63,473 nucleotides of DNA, from positions 1 through 63,473 of IMG/VR virus record IMGVR_UViG_3300049811_000819. One strand, 5' to 3'. The DNA is from a virus. Made by a program: the position numbers and the translations under genes. The notes under the pieces are model-generated. The model was not told where the DNA came from, ran no database searches, and saw only the letters and a program-made list of their open reading frames with translations. Positions 7,805 through 49,477 of the stretch are shown here, piece by piece (position 1 is the first letter of the stretch; every line of letters begins with the position of its first letter).

Positions 7805-7964
7805 GTTCTCTTTCCTCCGATCTTGGGCGAAATCCCATCTCTACCCCGTTTCGGTAAGTAGTACAAAGCGATTCTTTTAGTTCTCGATCGCCCCGACACG
7901 ATGGGAGAATTTCCCACGCAATCGCCGAAGCAAGTATTGCTCCTAATACTACTATTTTTTTCAC
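7779..7964 (-). CDS. Small protein with N-terminal membrane or lipoprotein-like segment
   Basis: 61 residues starting at GTG, with AAAGGAG about ten bases upstream. The start codon overlaps the stop of the tape measure gene (GTGA), so translation is likely coupled. Residues 1-23 (MKKIVVLGAILASAIAWEIL) form a signal- or membrane-like segment ending PSC, which could be a lipobox-like cysteine, although the context is not canonical. The rest is charged with two further cysteines. An alternative reading frame over the same bases is less likely because it lacks the coupling and ribosome binding site. Confidence 0.55.
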   Translation of the reverse strand: MKKIVVLGAILASAIAWEILPSCRGDRELKESLCTTYRNGVEMGFRPRSEEREHDCRCVGR

Positions 7965-10900
7965 CCGAAAAATCTCCTTTTAGTTCGCTCATTTTGGGCG
8001 TTCTCACGCTCTTTTAGCTGAGTTAGAGAATATCCCATGTCATTCCGTGATTCTATCGTAATATTGCTCACATTGGTGATTGCAAGAGAACGATCAGATG
8101 AGGAACTATTTGAGTTCGTGATATTGTAGCCAGTTCCCCCTACAAAGCCGCCCGTCGCATAGTTTTTGATTGGGGTATTTTTATATTCTAGATAAGCTTT
8201 TGTCTCGTTCGGAGTAAGCACATACTCGTCTTCGTTGGCCACAATCAGCCGGGGGTTTCTCCCGCCGCTCATGGACCGTTCGCGTCGGAAAGCAGAAATC
8301 ATATTTTTCTCTATCGGGGCATCGGCTCCGATTTTTCCACCAGAACTAAAGAGGCTGAATCCTGTTCCCAGTGAAAAACCGGAAGCGGACGTGAATGGAG
8401 TGAAGGCGACGGACGATCCGAGTCCACCGAGGGAACCAGTGAATAGGCTTAATGCTCCTCCTAGTAGTCCGCCTCCCCCATTGCTAAACGGAACTGGGGA
8501 AGATGCGCCTCCGCTCCCTCCAAAGATTTGCATGAGTAGCTGATTGGCTGCCATTTCGCCAATCTTCTGCAAAAAGCTAGTCAGTACATTCAGCATTTGC
8601 TGTAGAGTATCCCGCCCCCCGGTGAATGCGGCTCGGAGTAAGTCGCCAAAAGCCCCAACTGCGGGATTGGCTTCAATAAATGCAGAAGCCAAATTAGCCT
8701 GTTGCATTTTGTCGAGAGCATCTGACATTTCAGATAACTGGGTAGGAGACAAGGCACCCTCTTGAGCTTGTCGCTTGAGTTCGAGGCGACGACGGGCAAA
8801 ATCTGCTTCTATACGAAGTTTTTGAGATTCTCCTGTACTAAACAGCGTTCCGAGCGGATTTATCCGGTTTCCCGCATCGATCCCGTCTGCAAGCAGGTTG
8901 TTGTAGCGTTCGAGGGCGGCTACTCGTTCATCCTCGATCATTCGCATAGCGGCCGCTTCACCCCGAATCTGTCCATAAGTGGCGAGTTGATTATCGAGAG
9001 CTTTATAGCCTTCAAGAATAGCCGTGTTTCGCTTGTTTTCGGTTTTGAGTGCTTTGAATGCGTCATCGTTGCCTGTATCCTGAAATAGCCGCGCCTGTGT
9101 TTCTTCCGAGTTTTTAGCAAAGTCTGAAGTAAGCTGTTCGAGCGATCGAATCTGGGATTGGATTGACTCTCTTTGTTTTTCGATCTCCCGACTTCCGTTA
9201 CGTCGGGCTTGTTCAATTTTCTCCGAAAACGTGAGATAGCCTTTAGAAGAACGCATTAAGTCGGTCGAGGTATCTCCCGTGTCTCTCAGTCCAATTTCGG
9301 CTTGAATTCGGCTTTCTTGCGTTTGTCGGATTAGTCCCGCAATCCGATCAAGATTTTCCCGTCTTGCTCGTTCGAGTTTAAGCAGGTTTTCTTCTTGTTG
9401 GTTTTGTAGAGCTTTCTCGCGGGTGATCCTGATTTGCGTATTGAGTTCTTGCGCCCGGTCGTAATCAAAAGTCGGAAGCGGAGCAAGCGGGATGTTTGCC
9501 TGTGGCTGCCCTGTTAACACACCAGAATATCTCTCGACATTGCCCGTCGTGTAGTTGGCTCTTTCGACCGGCGTAAGAGGCTGAAGATTCGGGTTGAGAA
9601 CTTCCTGTGCAAAGCCTTCCCAGTTTTTGTAAAGTCCCGATCTCATTAACAAGCGGTCAAACTCTTCTGACCCCGAAGTCTCTACTTGCTGAACTACCGA
9701 TGGATGGCGAATGTCGTCGGCGTTGACCGTTGATCGGTAGCGCATCGTTTTGGGGTCATAGGACGGGGAGGGATCGTATTTGTAAATCTGTCCATTGCCG
9801 TAGTCGATGTAGTCCCCGCGCTGTAATGTTCGAGGATTGTTCGGAGTTCCCTGTCTGTAATGTTCGGAGCTTTCGCTATTGTTCGGAGCTTCCCCAATCG
9901 CCGGGGCTATTTTCGGAACTTTCCCGCCAGCAATCTCTCCCGATTTAGCGAGAAGTTTTTTGGAGTTTTCCAGAATGCCCGCCCAGACTTCGTTTAAGGA
10001 CTTAAATGTTAGTTGTTGCCGTGATAGCTCACGGGCTATCTGAACTTGCTGGTTCCAGAAGTCCCGTAGCTGTTTTAAGCGATTCCGCTCGGCATCATAG
10101 ATTTGCTCTTGAATGTTCCGCAGTTGTCGAGCGAACTGGATTGACTGATCCCGAATGTCGAGCGGTCGTGTTCTCAGGCTATCAGCCTCGCCTTGAATTG
10201 AGGCCACTTCGTCCTGGTATTGCAGTATGAGGTCGTCTAATTGCTTCTGTAGCGAGTTCATGCCAGGCGTGCGCCCAGAAATGAGAGATACTCGCAAGCG
10301 TTGGTTCTCAAGGGTTCTCTGACTTGTTCGGAACTCGTTTTCCGCTTCGATGAGCGATCGCTGTAGTCCTCGGATCATATCTCCGTAGGACTCTCGGAAG
10401 CCTCTTATCTCACGGGCTGATTGAATCTGGTAATCCTCGATTGATACTCGGAGATCGACTACTTGTCTTTGCAGTCCAGTGTAATAATCCTCAAGGTCAA
10501 TTGTCTGGCTACGCAGGGATAACTTAGCCTGTTCAATCTGAAGTTGAATCCGAGCGATATTAGCTTCAATTTCTAGGGGATCACCTTTGAGTGTTCCGAC
10601 AAGCTTTGATTGTTCAAAGGCTAATTGTTTATAGAGTTTCGAGATTTCAATCAGCGTTTGGTCGCGGGCAAAAGTTTTGACCTGACTCGATACGGTTCTA
10701 GCAGTCAGCTTAATTTGCTTGTTTGTTGCCTCGATCTCGATCGCTGTGGTTGCGTAGAATTCAGCGAGGTCGTTTTGTTGATCTCTTAAGGTTAATCGTG
10801 TTCGAGCGATGTTCGCTTTAATTCGGGCAATATTCGAGCGAATTGGTAAAGGATCATCGACATTCGCCGCAAGTCGCTCTTGTTCTACTGCTAACTGTTT

Positions 10901-13900
10901 ATAAAGTTCTTCTAGAGATATTTGTGTTTCGGCAGACTGGAACGAGCGGAGTCTGCTAGTCGGGGTGGCGTTATAGAGTTTTTCTTGTTGTCCCGCAACC
11001 AGAACTTCGTTAGCTGATTGTTTTTCGGCTATCTGGCGACGTTTCCGCTCGTTAATAATCTCGCGGTTGATAGTCTGAATTTCTTTTTCTGTAGCAAGAA
11101 TATCCTGACGAGTTGTGGCGTAAGTTTGTGCCATTTCCAGAATATTTTTAAGAGCCGCATTCGATTCGAGATCGGAGTTTTCGGACATGACTCGCTCGAT
11201 TGCTTCCCGGGAAAGTAAATTCTTGTCAATTGCTTCGGAGAAACTACCGACACCGAGCTTTTTAAGATCGTCCCCAAAGTAGGTAGATAGTGTTTTGTCA
11301 GCCGCTTCTGTGATTCGAGTATTTAGTTTCGCCCCAGTTTCCGATGCAGTTGTTTGAAGGGACGCAATTTTTTCTTTTGCTGTCTGTAACGACTCCTCAC
11401 GCACCTTAACATTAAACTCATACTCGTTAAGCTGTCCCGACGCAAATCCTTTTTCGTTACCGATTTGTCGGGTTAGGGACGCTCTTGCGTTAGCAAAAAT
11501 ACGATTGTCTTGAGCATTGAGCGATCGATTAAATGCGTACTGAAGTTTTTTGTACTGTTTTTCCTGATCCCTGAGAACATTAAGGTAGTTCTGTTGTTCG
11601 GTTTTAAGTCCAGCAATTAGTTCTTTCAATCGAGCCGATTCTGATGCGTAATTTTTAAGAGTGTTTCCGCTTTTTCGATACTCTTCGTCTAGTTGTGCAA
11701 GCGCATTTTCGGCTACCTGTAAATCCGCAGTAATACGAGAACCAACAGAGCCAAAGCGTTTATCGATCGCTTCCTGCTCCGTTTTCATTAACACTTGTTC
11801 TTGCTCATTTAAGCGTACTATCGATGCGGAATCCCCTTTACCTGAAGCAACTGCCCGTTCCGCTCGAATTAATGCAATCTGGTTCCGAACACCTTGCAGT
11901 GAATCGATAAACTTATCGATCCCGCTCGTATCCGAGAGTACAGTCTGATAACCTTTTAAGTTTGTTTCTAGCTCTCCTGCGCCTTCTCGAATGTTTTTAA
12001 GATTTTCTTGCCGATCACGAACGGCATTGTTTCTTTTAAAAGTGTAAACAGTTCCGACTGTTAAAACATTAAGAACTTTTTCGGTTCCCGATAAATTCAT
12101 GTCAGGGAAAAGATTATTCCAGAGATTTTTGTCTGGTTTAATTTTCCCTAAATCCTCTAAAACTTTTCTCGATTCCTTGAGAGTCTCAAGCGAATTTTTA
12201 AGTTCTGCATTCCCATTCTCGAAAATATCATAAAATGTTGTCAGCGCAAAGATTGTCGAGGCGGGAACAATCATCGCTCCGAGTGTTGCTTTTATTACTC
12301 CGCCCGCTACTTTTGCTGTAGCCGTGAGAGTTTGCATCTGGGTTGTTGTTTGCCCTGCTGTAACTCCCATTGCAAACAATGAGGCATTGTAAGAAGATAC
12401 AAGCATTGCTCCCAGTCGAGTAGCGGCAGAAAATTGCAATACTGCTTTTCCGAGTAGCCCGATTGCGCTTATCGCCGCAGATGCGCCTACTGTTACAACT
12501 AAACTGAGGTTGTCGCTTAGTCCCTTCAGGAGAGCGTTGAGTAGCTGTAGCGCAGGGTAAGCCACAACGCCAAGTTTTTCCCCGGCTCCCATCGATAGCT
12601 GTTCAACGTTGTTCTGGTAGCGATTGATTTCTGCTTGGAGAGTTTTGCTTGCCGCTCCGAGTCCTCCTGCGCTCATCCTTTCGTATTCGGACGATAATCG
12701 AGGGATCACATCATCAGTGAGTAATTGTCCTGCGCTGGCTTGTCGGTAGAATTCGGCAGTCGTAAGTCCCGACGCACGAGCGGCTACGATCAGTGCGTCG
12801 TAAAGTCCTCCCGACTCGGTTAATTGTTGAGTAAACTCCTCGACTGACAATACTGACCGAGATGCCATCTGATTAATCGCTCGGAATGTCTCGGCTTGTT
12901 GTTGTGGGCTAGTTTGCCGTACTGCAAGAGCAGACTGAAAACCTTGATAGATGTTGTCGCTTTGAGCTTGCAGTGGCGAATTCATTGTTACGATACGGAA
13001 CTGGGCGTACTGCTTGGCTGATTCTTTAAACGAGATACCGAGTTCGTTAGCCCGATCCTGTAGCCCGTCAATCGACGCATTAACGTCGCTAACGCCAGCG
13101 ACATTAAGGTTGATCTTGATTTGCTCTAATTCAGTAAAGGCGAGAAGCGAACTAGAAACTGCTTGTTGGAATTGAAATGGTAAGTTCTGAATTCCAAAGA
13201 ATAAAGGCTGTAATAGGAATTCGGCGGTTTTAAATAGAGCAAGTCCTCCAATAACTGCCAGCGATGCTTTACGAAGATTGAACATCCCCCCCGTAGCCGC
13301 ATCGAGTTCTTTGTCGAGGGTTCTGAGGGCTTTGCCGCCGACCGATAAGAAATTGATAAACCCATCCGCTTGAGCAATTGCAGCTTTTAGTCCACTTACG
13401 AAACTAGAGGTAAATCCGCTTGAAACGCCCGCTTCTTCAAAGCTGTCAAGAGTTTTGAAGATGTTATCTCTTTTTTGATTCCAGTCGCCAAGAATTTCTT
13501 CCCTTGTCGATTTTTGGGGATTCGATGTTTTTATAGTTTGATTTAAAAGCGATTCTCTTTTTTGTAGGATTGCTCTAGCTTTTATCAAGTCTTCTAGGTA
13601 GCGTTGTGGCGAATCTTTTAGCCCGCGAGACATCTCTGTATTCGTAGCCATCCGCTCCCCGTCGTTCGGGTCAGGAAAACCAGACGCAACACGAGGACGG
13701 CGGGGGGGCTGATTGCCACCTCCTCCCCCAGAAGCTAATCGAGCTTGCTCGGCACGTTGTTGCATCACGTCTGTTGCGTTTCTGGCTTGTTGAGCTAATC
13801 GAGCTTGCTCGGCACGTTGTTGCATCACGAGCGATGCCGCTTTTTGCATTGCTTGAATTTCGGATGCTAATGTTTTAGCTACCTTGCTTTTTGTCGTCTC

Positions 13901-16900
13901 AATTATGTTAATTGCATTTTCGATTCGTCTAGAAATTCTTTTCGCTTGCTTTTCAGTTTCAATAGCTTCTTTTTCGGGCTGATCAAGATTTTGTTTTTTA
14001 ACTGCTTGTTTAGGTTTTATTTTTTCTTCAATAACACTAAACTCAGCATCTATAATACGAGATGGATTAGCATTATTTGACTGTTTTGACTGTCTTGGTT
14101 GTGGTATATTTTCAACAACTGGAATAGCCGATAAAGGTTTTTGTTGTTGATTTGCTTTTTTGAGTTTAGATGCAACTTTTCCAGTTATTCCAAGCAAACT
14201 TAGTAAAGAAGCAACAGTTAACCCATAATTGCCTATAAATTTTAACAAATCGGTAGTTAATGCTTTCTCGGCAGATTCAACCTTTTTAGAAACATTTTTA
14301 ACTGGTAATATTTTGCTAGTTATTGATTGAGGACTGATAGACAATTCTTTATCAACAATAGAGTCAGAGACAATACTTGCTAAAAGATTTTTTTCTTTTT
14401 TAACAGGAGTAGGAGTAGTTACACTAGGAGGTTTAGATAGCTTCGCTTGTTTGTTTTCTATTTGAGGACGTTCAAAAAATCTTAATTGGTAAGGGGTAGA
14501 TTTGCCTGTCCCACCTAACGATTGCGGTAAAATGCGACTTAATGATTTACTTGGTACTGTTAACCTTGCCATATTCCCATGATCGGGAAGCATAACAGCA
14601 GTAAATCCCATAGAGCGAGCATATTTTTCTAACTGTTGTGGAGTCATATCTTTTTGACCTTCCATGGCAGTTAAATTACCTTCTTTTGTTTTACCAAAAA
14701 ATACTCTAGGACGAGGAACTTGGTAAGCTAACTGCTGTTTTACCGAGCTATGATAGCCTCCTTTGTAATTAGCTGGTCGTTGAACTTCGTCGTTGTATAA
14801 AACATGAAGACCGCCAATAAAAGTATCGTAATCGCTTAATCTATTCGATTTAGCTCCGCCATAGCCAAATTTTAAATTACCTTGTTTATTGATGCCAATA
14901 AAACCCCTTTCTTCTGCGGCGGCACGATTACGAGATAACTGCAAAACTTGTCCTCTTTGAACAACGTCTGCAATCATGTTTACTTTCTGATTTTTATTTT
15001 GCAAGAAAAATCTATCAAACATCGGGCCGGAACTATAAGCAATTGCCTGTTTATCCCGAAAAGCTTTTTTATCTACATCAACCTGCTTAACAACCTCTGC
15101 CCCAGTTGTAGCGGGGTTCATCGTGACCCCCTTAAAGGATTCTGTTTGGATAAATTGCTGTGCGTTGACAGGCATCCCACTAGAAGCTATGGCAAGAGTA
15201 GCCATAAGTCCCTTAACTGCCGGATTGGATAATCCTTTTTGTAATTCCTTGATAACTTTAGTGGTTAATTCTTTTACCTTAGTAGTTAATCTGCTTTCTT
15301 GTCTTTCAACGCCTATTCCTATTCCTTCAATTAGGTTTTTACCCGCTTTCTCTCCTTTTCGTGATGGCGATTGGTTTCCTAATCCCTTGTTAGTTGCGTT
15401 TACAATATCGATAGCATTTTGGTAAGCGATTTTTTCTGCTTTGTTATCTTTTAATCCTTTGGCTAAACCTTCGTTAAGGTTTTTGCCTGCCTCAATACCT
15501 TTTTTCCCGATCTCAGGGAGAAAAGTAGATTTCAATCCACCTGCTTCTGATGTTCGCTCCATCAATCCACCCATTTCTGGTGGAAGTGCTTTAAATCCGT
15601 ACCGTTCCCACAGTTTTTTTGATCGTGCGTCAGTTGGTAGAGTTACAAGGGGCGTATTGCCAACATGGGCAAATAGCTCTTTCATCCATCGGTTTAATAC
15701 CTCTCGGACTTTAGCTCGCGTTTCTGGATTAACAGGGGGAGTAAATGTGTTATTTACCATCAACGACGAAAGCATAAAGCGCCCGTCTTTTAGACCATGA
15801 CCATAAAGTCTAACTTTATGGTCATCGATAGTTTCTTCTCTAACGAAATCGCTAGTCTTGTTAGATAAGGGTTTTTCAGAAAGACTCACTGAGGGATTTT
15901 TCGATAGCTTTTTTGTTAATAATTTTTGTGTATTTTCAACAACGTCGCCACCTTCCCACTTGACCATTTTTGCTTCGGTTGCAAGGTCTTTTAACCCAGA
16001 GATTGGATCGGCAAAGCGAGATTGGATAATTTTTTCAATATCACCTAAAAACAGACCCACTTCAAAAGCTTTGACAATTTCTTCGGCTAACTCTTGAAAA
16101 TCGGATGATGCAAGCTCTTTTTCAATGCCTATCTCTACACCTTTGATTAAGTTTCTTCCTGCTTTTTCCCCTTTCCAAGATGGCGATCTATTACCTAATT
16201 CATTATTTAACCCATCAATAATATTTTTGGCATTTTTTCTAGCGATTTTGCCAGCTTTGTTATCTTTTAAGCCTTTAGTTAGACCTTCATTGAGGTTTTC
16301 AGCTGCTTTAATGCCCTCGTCGGTTAGATCGACTACGGTGAATTCAACATCAATTATTTGAGCTTTATCAAATAATTTTTTAACCTCATCGATTAAATGG
16401 CCAAGCATTCCCCCTAGTGATTGATTTATTTTCCCTCCCTTTAATTGAGGGTCTTCTATAAATCTTTTTATTTCAGCTGCCGATGCGACTGCAGATTTAT
16501 AAGCTTCTTTGATTTTGGCTAAACTTTTGGTATCATCTGGCATATTTAATGCCTCAGTTAGCAAATTTTTAGCCTGTTGGTATTGACCTGACTTTATCGT
16601 TTTTACATAATCTTTGGGAACCTTGACTGGTTCAAAGGGGGCTAGTTCTATTGGGTTAGGGAGTTTTGATGAAGCTAATCTTTGATAACTCTGTTTAAAC
16701 GTTTTAATAAGAGCGTCGGTTCTTCCTTGTAATGCTTTCTGGTCGTTGGCTCCTAGCCTCTGGGGAATGCTACCGGTGGCCGCTCCTAGAAGTTTTTTGA
16801 CCCCTTCCCCTGCCATTAACGACGATCCAGCAACCGCTCCCCCTTGCGCTAAGACACTGATAGTGCCGTTAGTTAGTTCGGTTACGAGGTTCATTACTGC

Positions 16901-19900
16901 TTCTGTTAGCTGTTGACCTACTCCGAACGGTAAGCCACTAAAAGCTTGTGTCATTTGCATTGACACTGCTTGAAGCATTTCCTGTCCACCAGCGCTCATC
17001 GCCCCTGACAGAATAGTTCGCATTTCGTTGATAACTGCGGCATCTAATCCGAGGGGGAGAGCGTGAAGGGCGGCCGCTCCTACTGCGGCAGTTCCCCCTA
17101 GCTGTAATGCTTTTTTACCTAAGCCCATCCCTGGTATAGCCATGACAGGGCGCTCGATCGCTTTCAATACCGTGAAAACAGTTTGACCGAATTTGATAAT
17201 ATCTAGAGAGGTATCCTTGAGAGCGTTTCTAAGTATTCTGCTCGCTTCTTTTACCTCTCTAATCAATACCTGATTTAATAGGTCTGAAATACTCTCATTA
17301 CCCGACAAAAGCTGTATTTCACCGCTACTATCAGGAGTCGATAATCTAGTAGTTAAACTGCTTTTTAAGCCTGCTTGGGTTTTGATAGCTATACTTTCTA
17401 AGACTTTTTCTAGCGGAGTATTTCCTCTGTCTGTTTCGCTAATACCAAAACCTTCAGGAGCGGGCGGCAAGAGCTTTTGTGAGGATGCTTTGTTAACTGC
17501 ATTTACGAAAGACTGCATTAATTCGGCATTAGATTTAGCCCACGGGTCGTTAGGTGTGCTATTTTGCCACGGATCGATTAAACGACTAGCATATTTGGCT
17601 AGAATAGCTTTTTCTATTCGGGATAGACTAGAAACTATTTGTTTTGTGGCACTGTGAATAGTTTTTTCAATTAAGTTTTCTTTTCCTGTTAAATCTTTTT
17701 GTTTGTTAACTACATCTGATACCTCTTGAGGCTTTATTTGTTGATTCTTGTTTAAAAGTGCCGCAAACTCGGAGATCGCTTTTTCGAGCCTATCAATGCT
17801 AATGATAGCGACTTCTCTGTTCTGGGAGTCTTTGCTTAATTGCCCCGATCTGCTACTTTTAGTTGGGGGACTAACAATGTCGCCTCCTACATTAAGGGTA
17901 TTTTGTTGTCTTCTCCGCAAAAAACGCGGATCATTAACCATTAATGAAGTGTCAGCATACCCCTCATCAAAAGCTTTTTGAAATATTTCCGTGGTTTTTT
18001 TATCGTATCCTTGAGTGCTTCGTCCTTTTGCCCCTTGAACATCTCTATTTATCTGTTCTTGGCGAGTTGTCTGATCTTTTGATAGCTTTGTTGCATTAGC
18101 AAAATCAATAGCTTTTAGTTCGTTTTCTGGACTAATTAAAACATTTTCTGTATTTAGATCAAAATGAGCATATCCAGATTCGTGTATATTTTTGAGTAAG
18201 CGTGCATAACGTTTTACATAATTTGTAAAAGCTTTAATATTTTCTTGGGTACTTAAATCGGCTTTTCGTAAAATATCGTTTAAAGAGCCAACTGTTTTAA
18301 TATATTCCTGAATAAAATACTCACCTTTTCTTGCGGTAATCGGGCGTGGTGCAAGTCCTTGTTTTGCCATTGCTAACTGAGCCTGGAACTCTTTTGGGGT
18401 TCCAAGTTTTCCTTGATTTAGTTCCGTGACTGGTGTTTTAATCGCTAAATTTCCAAGTCGATACACGGCTCCCGTAAAACCTTGTCCTACTTTTTCCGCT
18501 TTAAGTACATCAAGGTTTTCAGGGAGTATTTTTTGGGATTTCTGTAATGCTCGATTAACATTAATTAAGTCAAATGGCTGATACTGAATTGACTTGATAT
18601 TCTGTGATTCAGATGTTAGGGATTGCGATACATTTTCTAGCGCACTCTCGATTAATCCTGTATTTGTTCTTAAAGACGCTTCAAATCCAAGAATAGCGTT
18701 TGAGAGGTTAAAGAAAAAGTCGGTAATATTTTCTACGCTTTCGCCCATTGTGGCGATCTCTTTAATTACCTTGTTTTTCCCTATAAAAGTCGGAACTGAT
18801 GCGTTTGTGTCAACGTATTTATTAGCCGCATTTATCATTTCGCCAATACGCGAGAATGGGCTAGTTTTTAAGAGTTGAAGGTATTCTGATTGCGCTCCCT
18901 TGTCTCCCCCTGCGATTCTTTTTTGCAATTCGGAAACACGTCTTAAAAAGCCTTGATAAATCTGTGCTTCTTTCCGACGTATTTCAATCAAAGCCTGAAC
19001 GACTTTTTTGGCCGCCTTGTCTGCTTCCGTGTTCATGGGCATTTTGTCAACCCACTTTAATAAATCGGGCAGGGACTGGTCTTTGACTAGCGGCAATCCT
19101 TTTTGATTAGTTGTTTGCGAGAGTTTGTAGAGAATATCCCCAAATCGAGGATTAATGTTTTTACGAATATTGCTAGGCGCATCTTCTCTACGAGAAAACA
19201 TTTCTCCGTATGTTGCTGAGTCTGGAGCAGCATTGTCTGGCTCTGTAACGTAGTGATAAGGTTTTGCTCCAAACTGTTTTTCGTACCCTGCTTCAGCTAG
19301 GGTATCAATAGCATTGATAAAGTTAGTCCATTCTGTCTCAAATTCTTCTCCCATCGTGCGGAAAATATTTTTCCGTGTCTCCATCCAAAAGCGTAAAAGC
19401 GAGCCGAAGTTGCTTGGCTTAAGATCGATAGTATCGGTTCCTGAATTAACAAGTTTCTCGATTTCTTCTAGGTTCGAGAGAAGCGGGTCAAGGTAAGAAA
19501 AAGGAACACTTGCTCCCGTAAGAATTTCTGCAAGAGTATTCTGGTAGGCGGAAATTGTGCTTTGTAGTTCTTTTTGTTCTCCCCCAGATGTTTTGCTTGG
19601 ATTACCAAGAACTGGGATCGTTTTTAAAAACTCTGTCCGTTCAGCTATTTCTTGATCAACGGACGTAATCAACGCAAGTAATTCATCTAGTTTTTTAGTA
19701 TCGTTGACTGATAACCTTGATCGGTCAACACCTGACACAGATTGATCTAATTTTTCTTTGTATTTTTTTAATTCTGTAATTCGCTTAACAATTGGAGCAT
19801 AAAGATGCTTGAGCGACTCTCTGAGACTTTTATTAAATTGTTTTTGAGATGTAGCAAGATTGCTTACATAAAGTCCAATCTTGTGATCTTCCCCTGTTCT

Positions 19901-21712
19901 GTTAAGAGTTAATTGCTGTTTTGACGGAAAGAAAAGACGAGAAGGTAAAGCAACATCAGCAGTTTTGTAAATATCTTCGGCTGCTTTTTTCTTTTTGGCA
20001 TCTTTGCTGTTTATATCGGGAATAAACGACTTTCCAAACATCGTGATCCCAACCTTATCGTAGTTGCCCATTGCAGCAACATATTTAAGCGGGCTTTTCG
20101 GATCGACTACGGAAGTTAAACCTGCATTTGGTGTGCCTATCCCTAATCCATATTTGACATTTTTTAGCATTTCCCTAAGAGCGGGTGACATCTTCATTAG
20201 TTGCTGTAGGATAGCGACTGCCTCCTCAACAACGTAGCCACCACCAGAACCCCCGACTAACGCAATCTCCTTGTCGGGGTTTCCCATTGCAACATTTAAC
20301 GCTTTTGCTGCTAACGTAATTGCGTCTTTGTCAAATCCCTCAAAATTAGTTTGAGCTACTCGATCAATTGGCTGAACTGTTTTAAAAGCTGTTAAAATTC
20401 CTTGATAATCCGCTTCAGACATGAACTTTTGCAAAAGTTCTTTATTTTTCTCGACAATTGGTAGCAATTGCTCTCGAATAAATTGACTTGGACTATTTTT
20501 TAGTTCTTCTAGGCTATTTGATAGGACGTTCGGAACGGCAAGGACGGCTGTTTCTGGAAAAACCCCTTGTACTTGAGCAGCAAGGTCGTAGGTACTTTTT
20601 ACCTGCGGCTGTCCAGGGCGGGATTCACTTGGTTGAACACCACCGGTTACTAAAGTAATAGATTTTCTAGATTTAATAAAATCCTGCTCTTTTTGCGAGA
20701 GTTGTAAGATTTTCGCTATTTCTTCGGCTGCTCTTGCTGATTCCGAGAGTTGTATTCGTTTGCGAATTCTTAACGGTTGTACTGCAACTCGTGCGGCCGC
20801 TCCCAGTGATCGCACGAGATTTTCCTCGGCCACCATTGCAATTTTCGGAAAAGCCTCTTTTAGTTTTTCCCCAATCGGGTAAGCGGGTTCTGGTTCTGTT
20901 GAATTTTTGGGACGTTTTTTGACGTTTGCACGACTAAACTGTTGCGCCTCAACGTAAAGGTCTTCTAATTTTCGATAAGTCTCTGGGTTAAAAAGTGTAT
21001 CAGTTATTGCTCTGTAATTGATACGAAGCAACTGTTTTGCCCCTTTTAGTCCCCTAGGGAAGCCCAGTAAATCCTTAAAAGCAGCGTCAAGAAGATTGTT
21101 AAACTGCTTAACATTGCGGCGAATAGTTTTACCTACTGCCTCGCCTTGATCCTCGAAGTCAATTCCGACTGTTCTATTAAGTCCTTTGCCCGCTTTTAGC
21201 CCGCTATAAAGCCCTGCCCCCGTAAAGAATCCCTCGACTGCATTGCCCACAGTGAGATTAAATGCCTTTTGAAAAATATTTCCGCGAGGGTTAGAGTTTC
21301 GGACGGTTACAGACAGTCGCTCGATCGCTTTTTCTACTTTGTCCTGATAGCCTGAAAAACGATGCTCGACTACAAGCCGAGACGGAACCTTTATATCGAC
21401 ACTGACGCGCTTTAATTCCCGCAATTCCCGATTAAGCCTAACAAGTTCCCGATCCTCGACATAGACACGAACGGGGTTGCGCCGGTAATGAGCAACGGTT
21501 TTGTCGAGGTCATCTCGTTTGAGCTTCAAGTGATCGTTCAGTTGGTACAACCGGCGATCATCTACTTCTACCCCGATTTTTACCGTCACCCCAGAGCGAG
21601 CGGCCATGCGCTGTAGGGAGACAAGTTGACCTTTTGCCCGTGCGATACCAATATCGTACTGGTTAGTATTTAAGCCCAGTCCAATTTCTAGCGTGCCTAG
21701 CGAAACAGTCAT
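7961..21712 (-). CDS. Giant tape measure protein with embedded enzyme-like modules
   Basis: 4583 residues. Order seen: ~1-340 tape-measure-like helices; ~345-620 alpha/beta-hydrolase-like region with nucleophile elbow GGSGGG (~487); ~1067-1275 protein-kinase-like region (VGQGFTGAVY loop, LAIK lysine, HFDLNTEN catalytic loop, DFA replacing DFG); hydrophobic stretch ~1525-1640; a 65-residue repeat at ~1800 and ~2074 flanking a GNAT-like region (~1955-2055, SKKLWERYGFKAL); NAGPA/phosphodiester-glycosidase-like region ~2200-2420 (GFIGINKQGN, FFGKTKEGNL, MTPQQLEKYA); the conventional tape-measure domain ~2830-3060; then long coiled coil to ~4350 and a glycine-rich end. It starts after GGAGAC, two bases past the chaperone extension. 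Tape measures set tail length and are ejected with DNA, so these modules may enter the host (inference). Confidence 0.85.
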   Translation of the reverse strand: MTVSLGTLEIGLGLNTNQYDIGIARAKGQLVSLQRMAARSGVTVKIGVEVDDRRLYQLNDHLKLKRDDLDKTVAHYRRNPVRVYVEDRELVRLNRELRELKRVSVDIKVPSRLVVEHRFSGYQDKVEKAIERLSVTVRNSNPRGNIFQKAFNLTVGNAVEGFFTGAGLYSGLKAGKGLNRTVGIDFEDQGEAVGKTIRRNVKQFNNLLDAAFKDLLGFPRGLKGAKQLLRINYRAITDTLFNPETYRKLEDLYVEAQQFSRANVKKRPKNSTEPEPAYPIGEKLKEAFPKIAMVAEENLVRSLGAAARVAVQPLRIRKRIQLSESARAAEEIAKILQLSQKEQDFIKSRKSITLVTGGVQPSESRPGQPQVKSTYDLAAQVQGVFPETAVLAVPNVLSNSLEELKNSPSQFIREQLLPIVEKNKELLQKFMSEADYQGILTAFKTVQPIDRVAQTNFEGFDKDAITLAAKALNVAMGNPDKEIALVGGSGGGYVVEEAVAILQQLMKMSPALREMLKNVKYGLGIGTPNAGLTSVVDPKSPLKYVAAMGNYDKVGITMFGKSFIPDINSKDAKKKKAAEDIYKTADVALPSRLFFPSKQQLTLNRTGEDHKIGLYVSNLATSQKQFNKSLRESLKHLYAPIVKRITELKKYKEKLDQSVSGVDRSRLSVNDTKKLDELLALITSVDQEIAERTEFLKTIPVLGNPSKTSGGEQKELQSTISAYQNTLAEILTGASVPFSYLDPLLSNLEEIEKLVNSGTDTIDLKPSNFGSLLRFWMETRKNIFRTMGEEFETEWTNFINAIDTLAEAGYEKQFGAKPYHYVTEPDNAAPDSATYGEMFSRREDAPSNIRKNINPRFGDILYKLSQTTNQKGLPLVKDQSLPDLLKWVDKMPMNTEADKAAKKVVQALIEIRRKEAQIYQGFLRRVSELQKRIAGGDKGAQSEYLQLLKTSPFSRIGEMINAANKYVDTNASVPTFIGKNKVIKEIATMGESVENITDFFFNLSNAILGFEASLRTNTGLIESALENVSQSLTSESQNIKSIQYQPFDLINVNRALQKSQKILPENLDVLKAEKVGQGFTGAVYRLGNLAIKTPVTELNQGKLGTPKEFQAQLAMAKQGLAPRPITARKGEYFIQEYIKTVGSLNDILRKADLSTQENIKAFTNYVKRYARLLKNIHESGYAHFDLNTENVLISPENELKAIDFANATKLSKDQTTRQEQINRDVQGAKGRSTQGYDKKTTEIFQKAFDEGYADTSLMVNDPRFLRRRQQNTLNVGGDIVSPPTKSSRSGQLSKDSQNREVAIISIDRLEKAISEFAALLNKNQQIKPQEVSDVVNKQKDLTGKENLIEKTIHSATKQIVSSLSRIEKAILAKYASRLIDPWQNSTPNDPWAKSNAELMQSFVNAVNKASSQKLLPPAPEGFGISETDRGNTPLEKVLESIAIKTQAGLKSSLTTRLSTPDSSGEIQLLSGNESISDLLNQVLIREVKEASRILRNALKDTSLDIIKFGQTVFTVLKAIERPVMAIPGMGLGKKALQLGGTAAVGAAALHALPLGLDAAVINEMRTILSGAMSAGGQEMLQAVSMQMTQAFSGLPFGVGQQLTEAVMNLVTELTNGTISVLAQGGAVAGSSLMAGEGVKKLLGAATGSIPQRLGANDQKALQGRTDALIKTFKQSYQRLASSKLPNPIELAPFEPVKVPKDYVKTIKSGQYQQAKNLLTEALNMPDDTKSLAKIKEAYKSAVASAAEIKRFIEDPQLKGGKINQSLGGMLGHLIDEVKKLFDKAQIIDVEFTVVDLTDEGIKAAENLNEGLTKGLKDNKAGKIARKNAKNIIDGLNNELGNRSPSWKGEKAGRNLIKGVEIGIEKELASSDFQELAEEIVKAFEVGLFLGDIEKIIQSRFADPISGLKDLATEAKMVKWEGGDVVENTQKLLTKKLSKNPSVSLSEKPLSNKTSDFVREETIDDHKVRLYGHGLKDGRFMLSSLMVNNTFTPPVNPETRAKVREVLNRWMKELFAHVGNTPLVTLPTDARSKKLWERYGFKALPPEMGGLMERTSEAGGLKSTFLPEIGKKGIEAGKNLNEGLAKGLKDNKAEKIAYQNAIDIVNATNKGLGNQSPSRKGEKAGKNLIEGIGIGVERQESRLTTKVKELTTKVIKELQKGLSNPAVKGLMATLAIASSGMPVNAQQFIQTESFKGVTMNPATTGAEVVKQVDVDKKAFRDKQAIAYSSGPMFDRFFLQNKNQKVNMIADVVQRGQVLQLSRNRAAAEERGFIGINKQGNLKFGYGGAKSNRLSDYDTFIGGLHVLYNDEVQRPANYKGGYHSSVKQQLAYQVPRPRVFFGKTKEGNLTAMEGQKDMTPQQLEKYARSMGFTAVMLPDHGNMARLTVPSKSLSRILPQSLGGTGKSTPYQLRFFERPQIENKQAKLSKPPSVTTPTPVKKEKNLLASIVSDSIVDKELSISPQSITSKILPVKNVSKKVESAEKALTTDLLKFIGNYGLTVASLLSLLGITGKVASKLKKANQQQKPLSAIPVVENIPQPRQSKQSNNANPSRIIDAEFSVIEEKIKPKQAVKKQNLDQPEKEAIETEKQAKRISRRIENAINIIETTKSKVAKTLASEIQAMQKAASLVMQQRAEQARLAQQARNATDVMQQRAEQARLASGGGGGNQPPRRPRVASGFPDPNDGERMATNTEMSRGLKDSPQRYLEDLIKARAILQKRESLLNQTIKTSNPQKSTREEILGDWNQKRDNIFKTLDSFEEAGVSSGFTSSFVSGLKAAIAQADGFINFLSVGGKALRTLDKELDAATGGMFNLRKASLAVIGGLALFKTAEFLLQPLFFGIQNLPFQFQQAVSSSLLAFTELEQIKINLNVAGVSDVNASIDGLQDRANELGISFKESAKQYAQFRIVTMNSPLQAQSDNIYQGFQSALAVRQTSPQQQAETFRAINQMASRSVLSVEEFTQQLTESGGLYDALIVAARASGLTTAEFYRQASAGQLLTDDVIPRLSSEYERMSAGGLGAASKTLQAEINRYQNNVEQLSMGAGEKLGVVAYPALQLLNALLKGLSDNLSLVVTVGASAAISAIGLLGKAVLQFSAATRLGAMLVSSYNASLFAMGVTAGQTTTQMQTLTATAKVAGGVIKATLGAMIVPASTIFALTTFYDIFENGNAELKNSLETLKESRKVLEDLGKIKPDKNLWNNLFPDMNLSGTEKVLNVLTVGTVYTFKRNNAVRDRQENLKNIREGAGELETNLKGYQTVLSDTSGIDKFIDSLQGVRNQIALIRAERAVASGKGDSASIVRLNEQEQVLMKTEQEAIDKRFGSVGSRITADLQVAENALAQLDEEYRKSGNTLKNYASESARLKELIAGLKTEQQNYLNVLRDQEKQYKKLQYAFNRSLNAQDNRIFANARASLTRQIGNEKGFASGQLNEYEFNVKVREESLQTAKEKIASLQTTASETGAKLNTRITEAADKTLSTYFGDDLKKLGVGSFSEAIDKNLLSREAIERVMSENSDLESNAALKNILEMAQTYATTRQDILATEKEIQTINREIINERKRRQIAEKQSANEVLVAGQQEKLYNATPTSRLRSFQSAETQISLEELYKQLAVEQERLAANVDDPLPIRSNIARIKANIARTRLTLRDQQNDLAEFYATTAIEIEATNKQIKLTARTVSSQVKTFARDQTLIEISKLYKQLAFEQSKLVGTLKGDPLEIEANIARIQLQIEQAKLSLRSQTIDLEDYYTGLQRQVVDLRVSIEDYQIQSAREIRGFRESYGDMIRGLQRSLIEAENEFRTSQRTLENQRLRVSLISGRTPGMNSLQKQLDDLILQYQDEVASIQGEADSLRTRPLDIRDQSIQFARQLRNIQEQIYDAERNRLKQLRDFWNQQVQIARELSRQQLTFKSLNEVWAGILENSKKLLAKSGEIAGGKVPKIAPAIGEAPNNSESSEHYRQGTPNNPRTLQRGDYIDYGNGQIYKYDPSPSYDPKTMRYRSTVNADDIRHPSVVQQVETSGSEEFDRLLMRSGLYKNWEGFAQEVLNPNLQPLTPVERANYTTGNVERYSGVLTGQPQANIPLAPLPTFDYDRAQELNTQIRITREKALQNQQEENLLKLERARRENLDRIAGLIRQTQESRIQAEIGLRDTGDTSTDLMRSSKGYLTFSEKIEQARRNGSREIEKQRESIQSQIRSLEQLTSDFAKNSEETQARLFQDTGNDDAFKALKTENKRNTAILEGYKALDNQLATYGQIRGEAAAMRMIEDERVAALERYNNLLADGIDAGNRINPLGTLFSTGESQKLRIEADFARRRLELKRQAQEGALSPTQLSEMSDALDKMQQANLASAFIEANPAVGAFGDLLRAAFTGGRDTLQQMLNVLTSFLQKIGEMAANQLLMQIFGGSGGASSPVPFSNGGGGLLGGALSLFTGSLGGLGSSVAFTPFTSASGFSLGTGFSLFSSGGKIGADAPIEKNMISAFRRERSMSGGRNPRLIVANEDEYVLTPNETKAYLEYKNTPIKNYATGGFVGGTGYNITNSNSSSSDRSLAITNVSNITIESRNDMGYSLTQLKERENAQNERTKRRFFG
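13733..13829. repeat. 60-bp-period direct repeat inside the tape measure
   Basis: A 37-bp unit at 13733-13769 is repeated identically at 13793-13829. It encodes a duplicated VMQQRAEQARLA peptide in a helical, glycine-flanked linker just before the conventional tape-measure domain, suggesting recent slippage or duplication. Confidence 0.85.
15306..16316. repeat. Diverged 65-residue duplication flanking the GNAT-like module
   Basis: Coding segments 16120-16316 and 15306-15492 encode related peptides: NLNEGLTKGLKDNKAGKIA / NLNEGLAKGLKDNKAEKIA, followed by RSPSWKGEKAGRNLI / QSPSRKGEKAGKNLI. The SPSxK...G tail is a common tape-measure repeat. The copies bracket the acetyltransferase-like region, as if it was inserted between duplicated tape-measure units. 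Confidence 0.75.
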
Positions 21713-25201: not shown

Positions 25202-25228
25202 TAAAAAGTCGCAAACTAATTGCGACTT
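25202..25228 (-). terminator. Rho-independent terminator after the DUF932 gene
   Basis: Minus-strand stem AAGTCGCAA / TTGCGACTT with loop TTAGT, followed by TTTTTAT. It separates the DUF932 gene from the tail operon, implying that the tail operon has its own promoter or depends on antitermination. Confidence 0.8.
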
Positions 25229-25264: not shown

Positions 25265-26425
25265 TTACCAAGCACGGACAGCTTGGATCACATTCGAGGT
25301 TTTCAATTTCTCTCGTTTTGCCTTTTCATGAGCAAAACTAGAGATACTATTCAGGAAAGCTTGTGTGCTAGATTGTGTTTGCCCATTCCACAGGCTATTT
25401 ATGGAACGGTTGAGGTTTTTGCTTTCCTCTAAGCGGTTGTGACAGTAATACTCTGTCACACAGTTTAGTAATCCCCATGCTGTCTCACGGGAAGAAACAA
25501 GGTTGCTACCGATAAATGCACCACGGGTGTACATGGCGTGTACGGTTCGGAGTATCTCACTCTCATCGGTTAAATCAATAGAGTTAATGAGATTCTCTAG
25601 CTGAACAACGCTTATTTTTTCCTGCTCGATCCGCCGTAGCAGATCAGTGGCTAGTTGTTTATTTTCTTGACGGATGCCGTACTTTTGTACGAGCAAGACA
25701 AGGGATTCTGCGCCGGTGATCGTAGTTTGAGCCAGTAGGTTTACCCGTTGCTTGTAAGCCTGCCACCCATCACGAGCGGCTACGAGACAAGCCTGAATAT
25801 TTAGCGTGGCATTTGAGTTATGCCCGATAATTTGCACTCTATCCCTTACCTTCTGTAACATTCCGTTACTGCATACAACGCGGAAAGCCACGTTACTGAC
25901 ACTGTGGCCAGCCCCGTAGTAAAACGGGTGCTGAATTAACAGCTTACCAGAGTTAGGGTCATCGCCGCAGATCGAGAACCCTGATCCTGTAAGATCGGCG
26001 ACCATGAATAATCTTAACTCTAACTCACCTGATCGGTTGATAGTTTCGAGTTTGCCTATTTTTTCTAAGGGGAGGCTATTTTCCGAGCAAAACTCTCGGA
26101 AACTATTCACATAACTTGAAAACGGCACGAGACTATCCGCCCATTCTTTGCTAACCGTTCCCATATCCCGCCCATCGGGATCAGAGAGGGCGATTTTATT
26201 TGGGTTGCTACGTTCATAAAACATTCCGTAACGATACTCGCTTTTTTGGATTTGCCAATCGAGGCCGATACCTTGTAAAGCTTCGCTAGGGGTCATATCG
26301 GGATCGAGGTCGATCCCTAACCCGTAGGAGGGATCTAATCTTCCATAAACGATTTTGGCTTTTTCTTGGATTTTTCCGTTAAGATTCCACCCAGCGTTAC
26401 TGGGATCGGTGATGGTTAAACTCAT
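25265..26425 (-). CDS. DUF932 phage/plasmid-like protein
   Basis: 386 residues from the ATG at 26425 (AAGGAAAAAA upstream). The text WADSLVPFSSYVNSFREFC, ELRLFMVADLTGSGFSICGD, HSVSNVAFRVVCSNGM and AYKQRVNLLAQTTIT, followed by AMYTRGAFIGSNLVSSRETAWGLLNCVTEY, follows the DUF932 (TIGR03299) pattern, widespread in phages, plasmids and cyanobacterial genomes. Function is unknown; it is usually an abundant accessory protein. A tRNA-like element lies just upstream of its ribosome binding site. Confidence 0.75.
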   Translation of the reverse strand: MSLTITDPSNAGWNLNGKIQEKAKIVYGRLDPSYGLGIDLDPDMTPSEALQGIGLDWQIQKSEYRYGMFYERSNPNKIALSDPDGRDMGTVSKEWADSLVPFSSYVNSFREFCSENSLPLEKIGKLETINRSGELELRLFMVADLTGSGFSICGDDPNSGKLLIQHPFYYGAGHSVSNVAFRVVCSNGMLQKVRDRVQIIGHNSNATLNIQACLVAARDGWQAYKQRVNLLAQTTITGAESLVLLVQKYGIRQENKQLATDLLRRIEQEKISVVQLENLINSIDLTDESEILRTVHAMYTRGAFIGSNLVSSRETAWGLLNCVTEYYCHNRLEESKNLNRSINSLWNGQTQSSTQAFLNSISSFAHEKAKREKLKTSNVIQAVRAW

Positions 26426-26468
26426 TTTTTTTCCTTGTAAATGTTTCTTGTTGCCTTGTTCAGGCAAA

Positions 26469-26517
26469 CTGATCGAGGGAATCGAACCCTCTAGGAGCCT
26501 ACCGATTAGGCGATCAG
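26469..26517 (-). ncRNA. 49-nt tRNA-like three-way junction lacking an anticodon arm
   Basis: Read on the minus strand: a perfect 7-bp acceptor-like stem CTGATCG/CGATCAG (26511-26517 with 26469-26475), a D-arm-like hairpin GCCTA-ATCGG-TAGGC, a short linker, then a canonical T-arm AGGG-TTCGATT-CCCT. No anticodon stem-loop and no encoded CCA. It lies between the stop of the 73-residue gene and the ribosome binding site of the DUF932 gene, so it should be in their mRNA. Fold is directly visible; tRNA kinship is inference. Confidence 0.6.
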
Positions 26518-26524
26518 AAAGGAA

Positions 26525-26746
26525 TTAGGTTTTATTGTAGGAGACGTACCAACCGTCTCCATCCATGTGGTTGTGCGCGATAGCGACTTTTTCACCGTTG
26601 CTGTTATACACAAAGGCTTTGTAGCCATCTGACGGCGAGCCTTTTATCTCCCTCAAAAAAAATTCTTCATTATTTGCAGATTCGGGAAAATCCCAAGCTT
26701 TTGCGATTGCAATGGGTTTGTTGTTATCGGGATGGGAAATAATCAT
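26525..26746 (-). CDS. Small hypothetical protein
   Basis: 73 residues: beta-rich text with KPIAIAKAWDFPES and YKAFVYNSNGEKVAIAHNHM and an ending GDGWYVSYN. No family recognised. Its promoter at 26782-26812 fits well; the tRNA-like element starts 8 bp after its stop and the DUF932 gene follows. Confidence 0.6.
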   Translation of the reverse strand: MIISHPDNNKPIAIAKAWDFPESANNEEFFLREIKGSPSDGYKAFVYNSNGEKVAIAHNHMDGDGWYVSYNKT

Positions 26747-26781: not shown

Positions 26782-26812
26782 ACTATAACTCGCTATTTCT
26801 TGACTTGTCAAG
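26782..26812 (-). promoter_or_regulatory. Leftward promoter, palindromic -35 region
   Basis: Minus strand TTGACA (26806-26811), then TATAGT (26782-26787) after 18 bp. The -35 lies in the perfect palindrome CTTGACAAGTCAAG, a variant of the repeated operator-like element. It drives the 73-residue and DUF932 genes. Confidence 0.75.
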
Positions 26813-34288: not shown

Positions 34289-35053
34289 ATGGCTAACTCA
34301 AGTTTAGCAGTTTTCGAGTTTCAGTCTAATTCCGTCCGAATTCTCTCAATCGATAATGAGCCGTGGTTTGTGGCGCGGGATGTTTGCAATGTACTTGGTA
34401 TTTTAAATGTTTCGCAAGCTCTTGCGCGATTAGATGGGGACGAAAAGCGTCTTGTGAATAGCGAAGGGGGTATCATTTCAAATGATGATCCAGACGTAAC
34501 AAGGCTTCTAGCTGTTAACGAGTCTGGTATGTACTCCCTTGTACTATCGTCCCGCAAGTCAGAAGCACGGGCTTTCAAAAAATGGATCACTTCAGAAGTC
34601 CTCCCCTCAATCCGAAAAACGGGAGGATATGTGCAACAGGAGTTGTCGGAAACTGAAAAACTGAGGATTAAGCTAGAAAACGCAAAAATCGAGCTAGAAA
34701 TTGCAAAACTGCGGCTAGAAACGACGAAAGTAGATGTAGAGCGAGAGCGTTTTGCGTTGGAATCGAAACAACTAAGTGAGCCAATCCCTCAATTTTCGGA
34801 GATTCCTGTCGCTAATGCGTATAGCTCCAATGCGGCTAATACTATCCAGCGAGCAAAGCTAATCAACGCAATCGCCGCATACATGGACAAATGCGAGCGA
34901 GAACACAAACGGATTCCTGATATTCGGAATTTGCACCAACGATTTCAGCGATGGATTTTGATAACCGACGATGGCAATCCAATTCGGGTCAATTCTGGCA
35001 TACTTAAAAATTTGATGCCAGAAGTCAACGCTTGTCGTGCCGAGCGTCATTAG
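34289..35053 (+). CDS. BRO-N family antirepressor-like protein
   Basis: 254 residues. The N-terminal 115 residues form a BRO-N domain: VRILSIDNEPWFVARDVCNVLGI, RLDGDEKR, VNESGMYSLVLSSRKSEAR, FKKWITSEVLPSIRKTGGY. A heptad-rich coiled coil follows (~120-160). The C-terminal module (LINAIAAYMDKCEREHKR... IRNLHQRFQR ... RVNSGILKNLMPE) matches the end of the Rha-like protein at 33313. BRO/Ant proteins bind DNA and often relieve repression of lytic genes. Confidence 0.8.
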   Translation: MANSSLAVFEFQSNSVRILSIDNEPWFVARDVCNVLGILNVSQALARLDGDEKRLVNSEGGIISNDDPDVTRLLAVNESGMYSLVLSSRKSEARAFKKWITSEVLPSIRKTGGYVQQELSETEKLRIKLENAKIELEIAKLRLETTKVDVERERFALESKQLSEPIPQFSEIPVANAYSSNAANTIQRAKLINAIAAYMDKCEREHKRIPDIRNLHQRFQRWILITDDGNPIRVNSGILKNLMPEVNACRAERH

Positions 35054-48772: not shown

Positions 48773-49477
48773 TTACTCAATACAAAGGTCTTCGGGATGA
48801 ACAGGACAATGAAAAGCGTAACCTTGAAAATATTCTAACCCTAAACTGCTTAAAAGATTAAATTGCAACAAAGACTCAACTCCTTCAGCAACTAAAACTG
48901 TTCCTTGTTCTTGACAGAATTTTGCAAAATACTTAATAAAACTAGCTTTTTCTGAATTGTCAGCGTCAACCAAAAATAGGCGATCAAGTTTGATGATCGA
49001 GGGAGAAATAGAGAATAGTCTATCAAGCCCTGCGTGATTGCAAGGAAAATCGTCAATAGCAATTCTATAGCCTAAGTCTTTTAAAAAACAAATTTCGTTT
49101 AATCCGTTTGGGGAAATAGGATCGCTTTCTGTTATCTCAATAATTACCTTGTCAGGATTTAAAAAAGTCGTCAACTGCTTTATGTGAGTTTTGTTTGCTA
49201 ATTGAATAGGCGAAACATTTACGCAAACTGACGAGATATTGTACCTATTAATATCCTCACTAACAATTTTTGCGATTAATAAATAAAGAGAGAGAAGCTG
49301 ATTAGCTTCAGCCGCAACCTCAAAAATATGTCCTGCGCCCTCTGTTTCAAAACCTTTCCAGCGAAGTAAAGCCTCGCAAGAAAACGGAATCTTTTCTGAA
49401 TTGACAATTGCCTGATAATACGGGCGAATATCGCCTCTGTCTAATGCTTTAAGCAGGTCTGCTGGATTCTTTCTCAC
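48773..49477 (-). CDS. EAL-domain (c-di-GMP phosphodiesterase-like) protein
   Basis: 234 residues from a GTG at 49477 (29-bp overlap with the portal gene; another GTG at 49492 is possible, and the frame is open to 49618). A whole EAL domain is present: CEALLRW, CVNVSPIQL (Asn), IIEITES (Glu), IAIDDF (two Asp), IIKLDR (Lys), LVAEGVES (Glu) and YFQGYAF (Gln). Loop 6, normally DDFGTGYSSL, is DDFPCNHAGL, so dimerisation or activity may be changed. EAL enzymes cleave cyclic di-GMP to pGpG. No GGDEF, sensor or membrane part. Its place between portal and MuF is unusual. Confidence 0.85.
   Translation of the reverse strand: MRKNPADLLKALDRGDIRPYYQAIVNSEKIPFSCEALLRWKGFETEGAGHIFEVAAEANQLLSLYLLIAKIVSEDINRYNISSVCVNVSPIQLANKTHIKQLTTFLNPDKVIIEITESDPISPNGLNEICFLKDLGYRIAIDDFPCNHAGLDRLFSISPSIIKLDRLFLVDADNSEKASFIKYFAKFCQEQGTVLVAEGVESLLQFNLLSSLGLEYFQGYAFHCPVHPEDLCIE

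Follow-up and report, generated by a model that had tools for sequence, protein, structure and literature searches.

The DNA analysed here, a viral stretch of 63,473 nt (the window), raises the question of why a tRNA-like structure that lacks an anticodon arm should lie between two protein-coding genes. The structure occupies positions 26469-26517 of the minus strand and is read from 26517 to 26469, the coordinates at which the original prediction had placed it. The minus strand is the functional one, because the DUF932 gene, the 73-aa ORF and the TTCGATT reading are all found on it. Folding yields an acceptor 5' strand CTGATC (26517-26512), a D hairpin GCCTA-ATCGG-TAGGC that contains GG (26511-26497), a linker TCCTA (26496-26492), a T arm GAGGG-TTCGATT-CCCTC with a 5-bp stem (26491-26475) and an acceptor 3' strand GATCAG (26474-26469). 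A discriminator-like base, equivalent to position 73, follows at 26468, and comparison of the tails places no encoded CCA 3' of it. The predicted D-arm-like hairpin and TTCGATT T arm were thus recovered; the predicted 7-bp acceptor stem beside a 5-bp T stem was not, as the two stems form 11 contiguous pairs, arranged as 6 + 5 or equally as 7 + 4. On the minus strand, the element alone reaches a minimum free energy of -19.2 kcal/mol (z -2.66 against shuffles), and together with the adjoining hairpin (the next 18 nt) -27.1 kcal/mol (z -3.79), with 0 of 200 shuffles equally stable. The tRNA-like structure is genuine.

As predicted, the element is flanked by two coding genes and precedes the DUF932 ribosome-binding site, the ORFs and an AAGGA motif all being on the minus strand. 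It begins 7 nt past the stop codon of the upstream 73-aa ORF (26525-26746), which has no Pfam or PHROG match, and 43 nt separate its end from the ATG of the downstream DUF932 gene (25265-26425, 386 aa; Pfam PF06067, 45.7 bits against a cut-off of 23). Directly 3' of the element, a hairpin absent from the original prediction pairs TTGCC with GGCAA around TGAACAA (TTGCCTGAACAAGGCAA; 26467-26451, minus strand; p 0.013 in the downstream-hairpin test), followed by the RBS-like AAGGA (26432-26436), identified by a script match. Upstream of the 73-aa ORF, a sigma-70-like promoter on the same strand, TTGACA-18-TATAGT (26782-26811), is a consensus match only (11/12), and the terminator-like hairpin downstream of DUF932 (25206-25228, minus strand) is of a kind expected about as often by chance. 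The genomes of 84,980 bacterial and archaeal species, when scanned, yielded no relative of the DUF932 protein or of the terminase, and the best phage matches of the window's terminase are at most 43% identical.

Relatives of the element were compared for conservation of the fold. Two IMG/VR contigs, L002 and L003, encode a DUF932 protein 82% identical to that of the window and carry one identical element. The L002 leader follows the same plan in a different sequence, with acceptor CCCTAG/CTAGGG, T arm CGGGG-TTCGATT-CCCCG and hairpin TTGCCC-GAATA-GGGCAA. The original prediction had turned on pairing being conserved in relatives, and it is: across the 11 acceptor and T pairs, window and L002 differ by seven two-sided changes, with no one-sided change and no broken pair. 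When the 5' strands of one virus are set against the 3' strands of the other, 5/11 pairs remain. Pairs were set by hand for these counts, since MAFFT alignments misplaced the 5' acceptor strand. The downstream hairpin is kept in L002; the upstream ORF is not conserved, and an unrelated ORF stands in its place there. A covariance model built on the window element alone (R1) matched L011 with 49.5 bits (E 1.9e-8) and L002 with 46.5 bits. The L011 element precedes a different gene, an unrelated 86-aa ORF; of its 11 pairs, a single one, in the acceptor, is broken and two are changed on both sides, and its hairpin pairs weakly (p 0.157).

The closely related L009 and L012 possess an upstream-ORF homologue without DUF932 or the element; the module therefore comes and goes. 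Model R1 found no element in most other p131 relatives (~71% identity), and the region upstream of a Scytonema plasmid DUF932 relative (L004, 27% identity) is without one. L002 also has a second, degenerate leader at about 5660-5735, which adopts a three-way fold without a T loop; as the stretch tested folds no better than its shuffles (z -0.85), it was not counted. In L011, a leader stretch GATAGCCARATCRAAACGGGGA..TCCCC is repeated at 594-640 and 1300-1340, and the tRNA-like element follows the second copy only.

Comparison with known RNA families places the element outside them. ARAGORN calls no tRNA gene in the window, Rfam gives no match to the element at gathering scores, and the tRNA-Sec model reaches 14.7 bits against 47. 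As in tRNA (RF00005), a TTCRANN T loop closed by G-C is combined with a 6-bp acceptor stem; the anticodon arm with its seven-base loop is absent, and a 5-nt linker joins the D hairpin to the T arm. The mascRNA-menRNA model (RF01684) does not match the window element at E<=10, and scores 25.0 bits (E 0.0031) for L002 and 24.9 bits for the element of contig L210, both short of the 42.5 bits set as the gathering score. The hairpin and leader (26467-26423) score 16.7 bits with the freshwater-2 RNA model (RF02980; gathering 49.9). Like the element, mascRNA and menRNA, from the lncRNAs MALAT1 and MEN-beta, combine an acceptor stem, a short D hairpin and a T arm inside a longer transcript; mascRNA retains a small third arm. 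Unlike the element, mascRNA belongs to animals and lies at the 3' end of its transcript rather than between cistrons. This family is described as processed by RNase P and RNase Z (PMC4919922). The element is best grouped with tRNA-like processing signals, and not with tRNA or the mascRNA family.

Similar elements occur in other viruses. We searched 2.9 million IMG/VR contigs with patterns that place a tRNA D loop near a T loop. The pattern AGTCGGTAG-N3-17-GGTTCGANTCC returned 22 stretches, 19 of them distinct; in 11 of these, but not in the rest, acceptor pairing, which is no part of the pattern, is better than that obtained with 97.5% of shuffled 3' flanks. The pattern CTAGTCGGTAG-N2-16-GGTTCRANNCC returned seven stretches, all with the anticodon-less fold, representing six distinct elements (one common to L183 and L220). 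Enclosed by CTA and TAG, the D loop has five bases, GTCGG, and resembles the mascRNA D loop. A structure descriptor without the D-loop requirement gave 26 distinct matches outside ARAGORN tRNAs in 2.17 Mb of loci, against one in a dinucleotide-block shuffle; these loci were partly picked by pattern, and many of the descriptor matches fall elsewhere in them. A stricter descriptor gave 39 matches against none in the shuffle, parts of tRNAs included. Elements that lack a D stem retain GG in the linker; GG is needed for the tRNA elbow.

Several contigs carry two to five elements, all on the coding strand: four in L170, three each in L221 and in the contig of L201 and L224, three and a weaker fourth in L135, and two each in L183 and L109. 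In six multi-element records, GTTCGANTC matched 20 times, in each case on the same strand as the elements already known, and the reversed pattern four times; in the L221 record, two of the three matches beyond the stretch first read (L245, L250, L254) adopt the fold. At the matching place in cr50_1 and cr111_1, crAss-like relatives of L207, the pattern is absent. Genes beside the elements are diverse and mostly of unknown function; they include a helicase (L135) and a scaffolding protein (L210) downstream and amidoligase-like genes upstream (L221 and L183).

Most of the at least 120 matches of one pattern scan were ordinary tRNAs. A scan for the downstream-hairpin pattern gave 25 stretches; beyond the L002 and L003 contigs, four records (L005:6857-6943, L008, L061 and L065) are ordinary phage tRNA-Thr and tRNA-Gly genes, and the remaining matches look like chance. 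Directly behind these four tRNA genes stands a 6-bp TTGCCC-GGGCAA hairpin much like the one behind the window's element, perhaps by chance among very many tRNAs.

Placement and downstream structure were counted in a curated set of 24 elements on 13 contigs, which are not independent within a contig. The set derives from the 26 descriptor matches: L097 was removed by eye as probably coding; L205, L211, L169 and L149 were moved to a second list, joined there by L208, L212 and L215; duplicates were reduced to the first copy (L001 = window, L006 = L002, L220 = L183); and L011, L206 and L109:10152 were added by pattern. Co-directional ORFs lie on both sides of 20 of the 24, and 19 overlap no called ORF, where ORFs are a greedy longest-ORF call and not a gene annotation. 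A hairpin (p<=0.05) begins within 8 nt downstream in 12/24, compared with 62 of 833 ordinary tRNAs from the same loci (Fisher p 8e-8, overstated because elements of one contig are treated as independent). All 12 hairpins start 1 to 5 nt past the acceptor, as in L109 (AACTAAAC-GTTTAGTT), L170 (TCAGGG-CCCTGA), L221 (TATTGCTA-TAGCAATA) and L201 (TATTGACT-AGTCAGTA). Of the other 12, which include L011, L138, L206, L210 and both L183 elements, none shows a significant hairpin on its downstream side. The distance from the element to the next start is 34 to 51 nt in many cases and between 1 and several hundred nt in the others. The acceptor/T stack comprises 11 pairs in the window clade and 12 in most other elements.

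A terminal CCA, which inhibits RNase Z, is encoded by none of 17 elements and by 412 of 769 tRNAs (Fisher p 3e-6, likewise too strong, as elements sharing a contig are counted as independent). The tails of the tRNA-like elements (e.g. L135, L207, L221, L183, L201, L208, L211) often read RCTA or ACTG at the place of a tRNA's ACCA; CT stands at that place in 108 of the 769 ordinary tRNAs of the loci.

We propose that the element is punctuation, excised by RNase P and RNase Z so that the DUF932 message receives a hairpin-capped 5' end of its own, and put the probability of this reading at about 0.5. The element would be transcribed within a two-gene message, the 73-aa ORF followed by DUF932. Host RNase P would cut on its 5' side and RNase Z 3' of the discriminator-like base, splitting off the message of the upstream ORF and freeing a tRNA-like RNA of roughly 50 nt. 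After a cut at that base, the downstream message would carry the hairpin at its 5' end or close to it, so that the DUF932 message would begin with the hairpin (26467-26451), continue into the ribosome-binding site and be protected by the hairpin at its 5' end; a 5'-terminal hairpin slows message decay. The presence of similar elements in several unrelated viruses suggests that the cell's tRNA-trimming enzymes are borrowed to cut viral messages, and an acceptor sequence that is free to vary with its pairing kept argues for recognition of shape by the enzymes involved. The candidates are the bacterial RNase P and RNase Z; minimal acceptor/T-arm substrates suffice for both. Two-sided pair changes, the intercistronic place, the missing CCA and the recurrent order of element, hairpin and start support message punctuation; the 12/24 elements without a significant hairpin, the broken pair in L011 and the stack of 11 rather than 12 pairs count against it. 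Among the three uses that the original prediction had offered, a processing mimic defining the DUF932 5' end is the best supported, by compensatory pairing, by co-directional placement elsewhere and by a hairpin where the RNase Z product would start, the cleavage itself being what we infer.

Other readings of the same observations are less probable. The fold and hairpin may act in cis without being cut, with a tRNA-binding protein bound to them or a nuclease stalled there, and so set the translation or stability of the downstream gene. The fairly constant 40-51 nt from the element to many start codons, with a Shine-Dalgarno-like site, is what a leader switch would look like; the downstream genes are, however, unrelated, and acceptor sequences that vary with pairing kept point to shape recognition by general tRNA enzymes, so we regard this as unlikely. 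We give somewhat less credence to the freed RNA itself being the product, a stable tRNA mimic acting in trans that would, for example, occupy tRNA-handling enzymes or act as decoy to a defence nuclease recognizing the acceptor/T half. Elements retain the acceptor, the T arm and an elbow-capable GG even without a D stem, and phage-encoded RNase P substrates of other kinds have been described (PMC11143913), yet several differing copies within one operon, together with the downstream hairpins, suggest a role in cis. Without an anticodon loop, anticodon nucleases would not be baited, and the decoy suggested in the original prediction, taken as bait for such a nuclease, fits poorly with the absence of an anticodon and is unlikely.

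Elements and tRNAs share signals of ancestry, so some elements could be decayed tRNAs. Seven elements whose D arm is canonical have this appearance: none has a significant downstream hairpin, two are free of ORF overlap, and one of them (L205) reaches 51.8 bits with the tRNA model of Rfam. That the elements as such are functionless tRNA genes that have lost the anticodon arm is nevertheless improbable, as decay would not yield seven two-sided changes with no pair broken, and would not fit 20/24 elements between co-directional ORFs or the excess of hairpins. The idea, also raised in the original prediction, that the element is the relic of a tRNA-type attachment site is very improbable. The window does contain a gene at 1-1107 that resembles an integrase gene (20.5 bits with the Pfam integrase model, under its cut-off), but this lies 25 kb from an element that sits inside an operon. 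An attachment core repeats the end of a host tRNA letter for letter, whereas the relatives' acceptor stems differ on both strands and still pair.

Message punctuation by excision has precedents. To our knowledge, plant t-elements come with no module of downstream hairpin plus start. They are described as tRNA-like structures in plant mitochondrial messages that are cut by tRNA-processing enzymes (PMC4919922). They share the tRNA-like fold with the window element, whose fold and intercistronic place were read from the DNA letters, and differ in belonging to a eukaryotic organelle with a protein-only RNase P. The logic also matches the tRNA punctuation of polycistronic transcripts, in which tRNA shapes between cistrons mark the places to be cut, except that a working tRNA stands there and the present element cannot decode. 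Bacterial polycistronic mRNAs are RNase P substrates (PMC4919922), tRNA-like parts of other transcripts are cut by RNase P (PMC4919922, PMC11143913), and the host enzyme processes phage non-tRNA transcripts, namely M3 RNA, C4 antisense RNA and T4 gene 32 mRNA (PMC11143913). The literature consulted also included PMC5723415 and PMC4810235. For the three phage transcripts, no anticodon-less intergenic element is described there. A search of the open-access literature found no description of anticodon-less elements of this kind in phages. It is a tentative view, held at slightly under even odds, that they form a widespread, undescribed phage class: intergenic anticodon-less tRNA mimics, as a rule with a hairpin and a start site behind them, that split polycistronic messages by way of essential tRNA-maturation enzymes of the host and leave the downstream 5' ends protected.

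If this is true, some phages cut their mRNAs at tRNA-like punctuation that is unable to decode, and depend for this on RNase P and RNase Z, enzymes that hosts cannot easily lose. Bacterial viruses would then have a counterpart to mascRNA and plant t-elements, and there would be an explanation for noncoding gaps in phage genomes where tRNA finders see nothing between the genes. The elements, some seemingly without a D stem and with the GG kept, would offer a simple test bed for the fewest tRNA parts that RNase P and RNase Z need, and may aid the prediction of expression units in uncultured viruses.

Other genes of the window were noted in passing. A 4583-aa protein (7964-21712, minus strand), presumably a tape measure, resembles a protein kinase over residues 1130-1218 (35.3 bits with Pfam Pkinase). 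An EAL-domain protein (48776-49618, minus strand; Pfam PF00563, 130.8 bits), of a group that usually comprises c-di-GMP phosphodiesterases, overlaps a long ORF at 49449-50732. A Bro-N protein is encoded at 34289-35050 on the plus strand (Pfam, 80.1 bits), and several other ORFs of the window look similar by eye.
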